Position numbers and translations under genes: made by a program | IMG/VR virus record: IMGVR_UViG_3300044825_001895 | Span: 1-64,000 of that record | DNA: 64,000 nt | From: a virus | Direction: 5' to 3' (one strand) | Shown here: positions 3,596 through 30,553 of the stretch, in pieces | Position numbering within the stretch: position 1 is the first letter of the stretch | How the letters are laid out: every line of letters begins with the position of its first letter | Notes under the pieces: generated by a model | Databases searched by the model: none | Told to the model about the DNA's origin: nothing | The model's input: the letters and a program-made list of their open reading frames with translations, nothing else

Positions 3596-3681
3596 AATCA
3601 TATGAGCAGTGAGGGTCCAAACCTCATATAAGTCTCACCCCTCCTATGCCTCTCATAGAAGCACAAACCAGGAGGTCTCTT

Positions 3682-5397: not shown

Positions 5398-5426
5398 TTG
5401 ACAAATCTAAAAGGATTTGCTACTAT
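5398..5426 (+). promoter_or_regulatory. promoter of the tmRNA gene, TTGACA-N17-TACTAT
   Basis: Perfect -35 with a 17-base spacer; the alternative -10 TATATA is 3 bases further on. It lies between tRNA-Arg and the tmRNA acceptor piece, giving the tmRNA its own start near 5433. Confidence 0.7.
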
Positions 5427-5432
5427 ATACAA

Positions 5433-5491
5433 TGTTCAAGAGGATGCAAAGTCTGTTGCTTCGGACTGGGGTTCGATTCCCCACACTTCCA
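5433..5491 (+). ncRNA. ssrA: permuted two-piece tmRNA, acceptor piece
   Basis: The piece ends in a T arm (TGGGG-TTCGATT-CCCCA), then CACTTCC and discriminator A. CACTTCC pairs over all seven positions (two G-U) with GGGGGTG at the start of the coding piece downstream, so the gene is circularly permuted: the 3' part precedes the 5' part, separated by a 6-base intervening segment (5492-5497). Alpha-cyanobacteria have this arrangement. The 5' end is set by the promoter only. GAGGATGCAA (5440s-5450s) can also pair with the coding piece. Confidence 0.85.
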
Positions 5492-5497
5492 TTTCGA

Positions 5498-5671
5498 GGG
5501 GGTGCATTGGTTTCGACGGGGTGGTAAGGTTGTATCTGTTGACGGAACAAACAAACAAACGCAAACAACATTGTTGCATTCTCTCGCAGTAATACTACTG
5601 CCCTTGTTTAGAGGGACGGGGTGATAACGGCCCTGTAAAGAAAGCGTTACGGGCAGTGAAATGCTGCCTTT
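5498..5671 (+). ncRNA. ssrA: permuted two-piece tmRNA, coding piece with tag ORF
   Basis: It opens with GGGGGTGCATTGGTTTCGAC, the tmRNA acceptor/D-loop signature. tmRNA rescues ribosomes stalled on broken mRNA and tags the nascent peptide. The tag frame (5561-5611) encodes ANNIVAFSRSNTTALV then TAG. The first nine residues resemble picocyanobacterial tags (ANxIVSFSR...), but the end is ALV, not the usual AA seen by ClpXP. Downstream, GCCCTGTAA/TTACGGGC and GGCAG/CTGCC give pseudoknot-like helices. The 3' end is taken as the base before tRNA-Leu. Confidence 0.88.
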
Positions 5672-5745
5672 GTCTGGTTGATGGAACTGGTATACATACT
5701 TGCCTTAGAAGCAAGGTTTTGCAGGTTCGAATCCTGTACCGGACA
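5672..5745 (+). tRNA. tRNA-Leu(TAG) with short variable loop
   Basis: GTCTGGT/ACCGGAC acceptor, Leu-like D arm (GGAACTGGTATAC), CTTGC/GCAAG with loop CTTAGAA. The variable region is only GTTTT, whereas bacterial tRNA-Leu normally has a long class II arm. Confidence 0.85.
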
Positions 5746-5937: not shown

Positions 5938-6057
5938 TCCCAGTGACGCCGTTGGTAACGGTCATGTGGTCGGGTGGTGCCCCCGCATTCCAGAAGGGAG
6001 TTAATCTCCTGAGGTAGGTGACTAAAAAACTTAAGGTTCGAATCCTTATACTGGGAC
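5938..6057 (+). tRNA. 120-base tRNA-like element with internal hairpins
   Basis: Acceptor TCCCAGT/ACTGGGA, a D-like arm (GCCG-TTGGTAA-CGGT) and T arm TAAGG-TTCGAAT-CCTTA frame an enlarged middle. The middle folds as TGTGG...CCGCA (with inner GGG/CCC) and GGGAG-TTAAT-CTCCT. No anticodon can be assigned with confidence; TAA in the second hairpin is one option. It could be an interrupted tRNA or a distinct tRNA-like RNA. Confidence 0.5.
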
Positions 6058-10469: not shown

Positions 10470-11014
10470 AGACCTATTACACATATGCATACCTTCGTGA
10501 AAATGGAACACCATATTACATAGGAAAGGGAACTGGTCGTAGAGCATTTCATAAAAATCATAATGTTCCAAGACCCACTAAAGATAAAATATTATTTTTG
10601 AAGAAAAACCTTTCTGAAGAGGATGCATTAAAACACGAAAAATATCTAATATCAATATTAGATAATCTTTTAAACAGAAAAAGTGGTGGAAGTAAAGGAA
10701 GAACTCCATTAAGTGAAGAACATAAACTAAAAATTAGCAAAAAACTAAAAAAAGTTAGACCTTTACAAGTCATTACTGAAGAACATAAAGATAATATCAA
10801 ACACTCTGTAAAAAAGCATTGGGATTCTCTTTCTGAAGAAGAAAGAAATAAAAGAATTTCAAATTTTGTTAAACCTTCAAAAAAAATTTTTATAGTTGAT
10901 GGTAAAGAGTACATTGGTATTCAATCTATTATGGAACACTATAATATGACTAAAATGGAAGTTGCTAATAGAATTTATAGTAAATCTAAAAAATGGTCTT
11001 CTTGGTGCCCGTAA
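10466..11014 (+). CDS. GIY-YIG homing endonuclease with NUMOD3 repeats
   Basis: A 182-residue protein. YYTYAYLRENGTPYYIGKGTG (residues 3-23) is the GIY-YIG core; GRRAFHK.H adds the catalytic Arg region. Residues about 75-100 (GRTPLSEEHKLKISKKLKK) are a NUMOD3 repeat. The C-terminus (VDGKEYIGIQSIMEHYNMT...) is an IENR1-type DNA-binding end. It is AT-rich with long A runs, unlike the flanking genes. It probably hides its start codon until late infection. Confidence 0.85.
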   Translation: MKTYYTYAYLRENGTPYYIGKGTGRRAFHKNHNVPRPTKDKILFLKKNLSEEDALKHEKYLISILDNLLNRKSGGSKGRTPLSEEHKLKISKKLKKVRPLQVITEEHKDNIKHSVKKHWDSLSEEERNKRISNFVKPSKKIFIVDGKEYIGIQSIMEHYNMTKMEVANRIYSKSKKWSSWCP

Positions 11015-11114
11015 GATAAGGCACGTTAAATATTCTTGCTGGTGCGGATGGGACTCTCTCCCGCCTGGTTTCTTGCCTCCAGTCAAAGGGCAAGTGGCGA
11101 GCCTGAGTTACGTA

Positions 11115-30381: not shown

Positions 30382-30477
30382 AAATAGGTAAACAAATGTT
30401 ACGAAACGCTAACGATTCTTAACATTGTTAAACACCCGCTAACCGAGACCTATGGGTGTATAAAAACGTCTCTCATA

Positions 30478-30500
30478 CCCACAGTGGAGGGTGCTGTGGG
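30478..30500 (+). promoter_or_regulatory. psbA leader hairpin
   Basis: CCCACAG-TGGAGGGTG-CTGTGGG, a GC-rich 7-pair stem-loop with GGAGGG in the loop, 54 bases before the psbA ATG. It may stabilise the mRNA or control translation. Confidence 0.55.
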
Positions 30501-30553
30501 GAATAATCGTATCAGTTCGTCCCCCCGAACTTTTAACTAACTCTCTTAAACAA

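Follow-up and report, generated by a model that had tools for sequence, protein, structure and literature searches.

The 64,000-nucleotide stretch of viral DNA analysed here (the window, positions 1 to 64,000 of a virus record of 92,435 bp) carries at 5417-5668, as identified from its sequence, a permuted (two-piece) tmRNA of the cyanobacterial type. Its tag ends in -ALV and not in the -AA of the canonical ssrA degron. The valine end appears to be under selection and to have arisen in the course of recurrent Ala/Val switching among cyanophages. We consider it probable that the molecule is a functional phage two-piece tmRNA that uses the host SmpB and carries an altered, probably weaker or differently read, degron. 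More tentatively, we propose that selection may repeatedly have led cyanophages to switch the tag end encoded by their own tmRNA from the Ala of the host to Val, which would give stalled products a fate chosen by the phage, that is, slower degradation or a different protease.

The cyanobacterial tmRNA model RF01851 was matched by cmscan to 5417-5668 (112 bits, gathering threshold 70, E = 1.7e-29) and the permuted tmRNA model RF04321 to 5442-5592 (85 bits, gathering threshold 47, E = 7.4e-15), while ARAGORN independently reported a permuted tmRNA (tmRNA*) at 5402-5702 with the tag ANNIVAFSRSNTTALV. The sequence features that define the class of cyanobacterial permuted tmRNAs are present, namely a covariance-model score over gathering, the permuted order, a 7-bp acceptor stem with G3-U70, and a tag frame with resume codon and stop (Table 1). 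All seven positions of the acceptor stem are paired; two of the pairs are G-U, and one of these is G3-U70, the identity pair for alanine. CCA is absent from the encoded sequence. The preliminary description of this DNA had proposed a permuted two-piece tmRNA of the alpha-cyanobacterial type from the seven pairing acceptor positions and the TTTCGAC motif, and had named a covariance-model search as one way to check it; the base-level anatomy agrees with that proposal and the search, once run, placed both models over gathering. It had likewise described the tag as keeping a picocyanobacterial N-terminal part without the -AA end, which is what the ARAGORN tag displays. A chance match or a pseudogene was ruled out by the covariance-model scores, the covarying stems and the synonymous-only change in the tag.

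Table 1. Predicted features of the two-piece tmRNA and its promoter (window coordinates)
Feature	Position	Strand	Details and basis
Sigma-70-like promoter	5398..5426	+	TTGACA 5398-5403, spacer 17 nt, TACTAT 5421-5426
Acceptor piece	5434..5491	+	predicted 5' end; comprises inter-piece helix 5' strand, T arm, acceptor 3' strand, discriminator A
T arm TGGGG-TTCGATT-CCCCA	5467..5483	+	read from sequence; pairing across relatives
Acceptor stem 3' strand CACTTCC	5484..5490	+	pairs with 5498-5504
Discriminator A	5491	+	read from sequence
Inter-piece spacer TTTCGA (6 nt, removal expected)	5492..5497	+	place in RF01851 alignment
Coding piece	5498..5668	+	RF01851 match; 3' end is the Rfam model boundary
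Acceptor stem 5' strand GGGGGTG	5498..5504	+	read from sequence; pairing count
Conserved TTTCGAC, D-loop region	5511..5517	+	read from sequence
Tag frame ANNIVAFSRSNTTALV	5561..5608, stop TAG 5609-5611	+	ARAGORN; Val codon GTT 5606-5608
Hairpin GCAGTA-ATAC-TACTGC	5586..5601	+	overlaps C-terminal tag codons

By its gene content the virus is a T4-like cyanomyovirus, because the window combines photosystem genes of the psbA and psbD type with phoH, gp32, gp59, gp53 and baseplate genes and because the nearest named records are T4-like cyanophages; the host would be a photosynthetic bacterium. The tmRNA lies inside a tRNA island extending from about 3.7 to 9.9 kb, which holds 23 of the 25 window tRNAs called by ARAGORN. 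The preliminary description had given the tmRNA a promoter of its own within the island, and this is borne out by the promoter elements at 5398-5426 and by a recurring arrangement, TTGAC..TACTATATA or TTGAC..(G)CTACTATATA, directly upstream of the tmRNAs of most phage relatives. We also noticed a tRNA-like sequence at 5938-6057, called by neither ARAGORN nor Rfam, whose acceptor stem has 7 bp (TCCCAGT/ACTGGGA) and which contains a long insert. Rfam also gave matches to abiF RNA (3640-3676), to wcaG RNA (11003-11108) and, upstream of psbA, to PhotoRC-II (30420-30514).

Related tmRNAs were gathered from IMG/VR by sequence patterns, from annotated phage records and from host genomes; those of S-CAM1, AG-345-P14 and S-CRM01 are homologous to the one in the window. 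Comparison of 33 diverse phage sequences shows pairing in 231 of 231 acceptor-stem cells (7 pairs in each sequence) and an unchanged G3-U70 in all 33. The T stem has double-sided changes at 5/5 pairs with every cell still paired, and pairing over the whole structure is far above that of shuffled and slid controls. The tRNA-like domain is thus, as far as pairing tells, intact. For Synechococcus phage B23, where a shared tRNA-Ala suggested a tmRNA, none was seen in the annotation of that region.

A close examination of the tag ends was made on 94 distinct cyanophage tmRNAs (viral contigs and phage records, identical sequences removed). Valine ends 51 of them, comprising 26 different tags (LV 33, AV 9, SV 5, TV 4), alanine ends 42 (AA 28, TA 13, CA 1) and leucine one; the terminal residue is never polar. 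The proportion 51/94 is not a population frequency, as three of the search patterns demand an AN[NK]IV tag part and the last of these also a phage-specific motif; the first pattern makes no use of the tag, and among the 42 cyano-type viral loci found with it alone, 13 are Val-ended. The annotated cyanophage records retrieved have tags ending in VAA, ATA, VTA, SCA or AAL, none in Val. A sequencing error or one-off event at the tag end was ruled out by the diversity of Val-ended tags and by two further loci with the tag of the window, the diverged relative L088 and L019, which is 97.7% identical to the window across 4.4 kb. The -ALV end had been called atypical in the preliminary description; it is present and does differ from the host -AA, but it is not peculiar to this phage.

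Host tags end in -AA in 109 of 109 distinct tmRNAs (identical sequences removed). A second sampling covered 399 genomes from the host order, 356 of them with the canonical ..[VI]AA tag; the other 43 gave five tmRNA matches, of which four could be typed, two as -AA, one as ..APVLA and one as ..APVAV. The -AA end is accordingly found in 358 of 360 typed genomes, with exceptions in about 2 of 360 (L376, and L378 with the APVAV tag), and the valine end is not strictly a phage trait because one host genome, L378, has it. Nor is it a general trait of phage tmRNAs; this was ruled out by the 57 distinct non-cyanobacterial permuted tmRNAs in viral contigs, all 57 of which end in Ala. In one host tmRNA (L377), otherwise host-type, the DNA of the tag cassette almost matches that of the viral contig L023, a likeness suggesting that host and phage have exchanged the tag.

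The changes accumulated in the tag point to selection on its peptide. In 92 phage tmRNAs the conserved N-terminal residues N, V, F and R show 9, 16, 6 and 11 codon changes, respectively, and no amino acid change, and every sequence compared (134/134 from phages, 112/112 from hosts) has an A at position -4 relative to the resume codon. Because of these two observations and the limitation of the last residue to V, A or one L, the tag is very probably translated, with its frame under purifying selection, and its end appears constrained to nonpolar residues. The 51 Val-ended tags use all four valine codons (GTT 38, GTA 10, GTC 2, GTG 1) and two stops, and their last codon has changed six times, always at the third base. 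The lack of amino acid changes in this last-codon test follows from choosing a Val-ended set, and the informative points are the synonymous change and the V/A/L restriction among the 94. When the tree is computed with the tag columns left out, Val and non-Val ends are separated by at least six changes, of which strongly supported branches force four; the count is approximate since the tree is that of a short recombining RNA. Valine is retained while the preceding residues change completely (e.g., NRNRQIFLV, TAQTV, APSLV). A constraint at the RNA level could contribute, because a hairpin covers codons close to the end of the tag; the Val and stop codons nevertheless vary.

Two-piece tmRNA has long been known in cyanobacteria, where the two pieces of the Prochlorococcus and Synechococcus ssrA were shown by Northern blot (PMC1242208), and in phages it has been published as well: 53 of 133 unique phage tmRNA structures from marine phages are predicted to be two-piece, including that of Prochlorococcus phage AG-345-P14 (PMC9004378), and the tmRNA database lists 79 phage tmRNAs (PMC11915505). 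The window's tmRNA shares with the alpha-cyanobacterial form (RF01851) the permuted order, T arm, G3-U70, TTTCGAC, the tag N-terminal part ANNIV.F.R and the resume-codon context. It differs in ending its tag with -LV where the host has -VAA, in a pre-tag segment TATCTGTTGACGGRACA where the host has CCTGCTCGGTTAGAGCA, and in lying, with a promoter of its own, in the tRNA island of a phage. With the marine-phage molecules (PMC9004378; Melnitz) it shares a phage-encoded permuted tmRNA. It departs from the annotated cyanophage records retrieved in its valine end, of which no description was found in the published tmRNA literature examined. Close parallels to that end are the engineered ssrA variants LVA, AAV and ASV (PMC9097571, PMC11003136), which also have altered last residues, AAV and ASV with Val in place of the C-terminal Ala; these are artificial, were made on the E. 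coli tag, and have A or S as the penultimate residue of the Val-ended forms where the window has L.

A search of 11 phage records, of which some are fragments, found neither SmpB nor ClpP; the RNA would therefore use the SmpB, alanyl-tRNA synthetase and proteases of the host. In the reading we favour, the transcript from the tmRNA's own promoter would be cut into the acceptor and coding pieces, which would pair to form the tRNA-like domain. A host enzyme would then charge this domain with alanine (of the determinants, G3-U70 was checked) and host SmpB would bind. Ribosomes stalled during infection would be freed with the addition of a tag ending in -Leu-Val, and the tagged chains would most likely still be degraded, but at a lower rate or by fewer kinds of protease than those carrying the host ...PVAA. 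The last three residues set the strength of the E. coli ssrA tag, GFP with LAA or LVA being more unstable than with AAV or ASV (PMC9097571), and in Salmonella the AAV and ASV tags give intermediate, fully ClpXP-dependent decay (PMC11003136). An altered, probably weaker degron is preferred over no degron because these enteric Val-ended variants still decay, at a slower rate, and because tmRNA tags are mostly hydrophobic at the last residue (PMC4131195). Degron recognition in cyanobacteria itself is poorly known (PMC7966870).

The preliminary description went further and suggested that tagged proteins could be left undegraded. In such a case ribosomes would be recycled, the tag would no longer be a degron, and phage proteins from broken messages would survive. 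The departure from an -AA end that is near-invariant in hosts is in keeping with this, as is the dependence of ClpX recognition of ssrA on the last residues (PMC9097571). Simple loss, however, predicts drift to any residue including polar ones, against the V, A or single L seen in 94/94; changes within Val are synonymous only; and ClpXP still takes tags ending in -AAV or -ASV, although more slowly (PMC9097571, PMC11003136). We therefore regard complete escape from degradation as unlikely. It is improbable as well that the chains are redirected, not slowed, with the -xV end read by another host protease (e.g., a PDZ-type tail-specific protease, FtsH or Lon). PDZ domains prefer a C-terminal Val, and a strict Val behind completely changed residues resembles a specific C-terminal signal. 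Against such re-routing stand the missing ClpP in the 11 phage records and the scanned window proteins, among which a C39-like peptidase is the sole dedicated protease.

A further alternative, close to the competition with the host tmRNA raised in the preliminary description, is a decoy whose main effect would be to titrate SmpB and thereby inhibit trans-translation in the host. The tmRNA of mycobacteriophage DS6A offers a parallel: it is a reported form consisting of the tRNA-like domain (TLD) only, and such a molecule does inhibit the host tmRNA (PMC11915505, PMC4131195). Both RNAs are phage-encoded and could act on host trans-translation, and the DS6A molecule lacks a tag frame, whereas in the window the frame is intact and selected. 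A decoy has no need of a tag frame, stop and A at -4 kept under purifying selection, which makes this explanation very unlikely. Least credible of all is a decaying, functionless copy of a host gene. Some relatives are indeed highly divergent, e.g., in having the T-loop GGCAGTA in place of TTCGATT, yet in many lineages the stems remain fully paired and covary, the promoter is conserved, and the codons of the conserved tag residues undergo only silent changes.

The recurrent, selected change of the tag end suggests that the tag itself matters in infection, because it is seen in cyanophages and almost never in hosts or in the other permuted tmRNAs of viral contigs. If this is true, a virus rewrites the degron of trans-translation, and the phage tags would provide a set of ssrA degron variants made by nature.

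Several observations concern the relatives themselves. The branch with the GGCAGTA T-loop (L325-L331, L334, L343, L346-L348, L350-L357, L359, L360, L362-L364, L369) mostly has the D-side motif GAATCGAC where others have GTTTCGAC, and retains the acceptor stem and G3-U70. Its cyanophage tmRNAs have Val-ended tags and were found by motif; ARAGORN misses them, and the Rfam scores of those tested are near threshold. In L333, L337, L339 and L341 a complete tRNA-Tyr gene sits between the acceptor and coding pieces; loss of the acceptor piece in these loci was ruled out, as the piece was found upstream of the inserted tRNA-Tyr. A tRNA-Trp occupies the corresponding place between the two pieces in L361. 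Two phage tRNA-like genes (L331:1678-1763 and L350:2280-2365) match the selenocysteine tRNA model barely over threshold (49.4 vs 47 bits).
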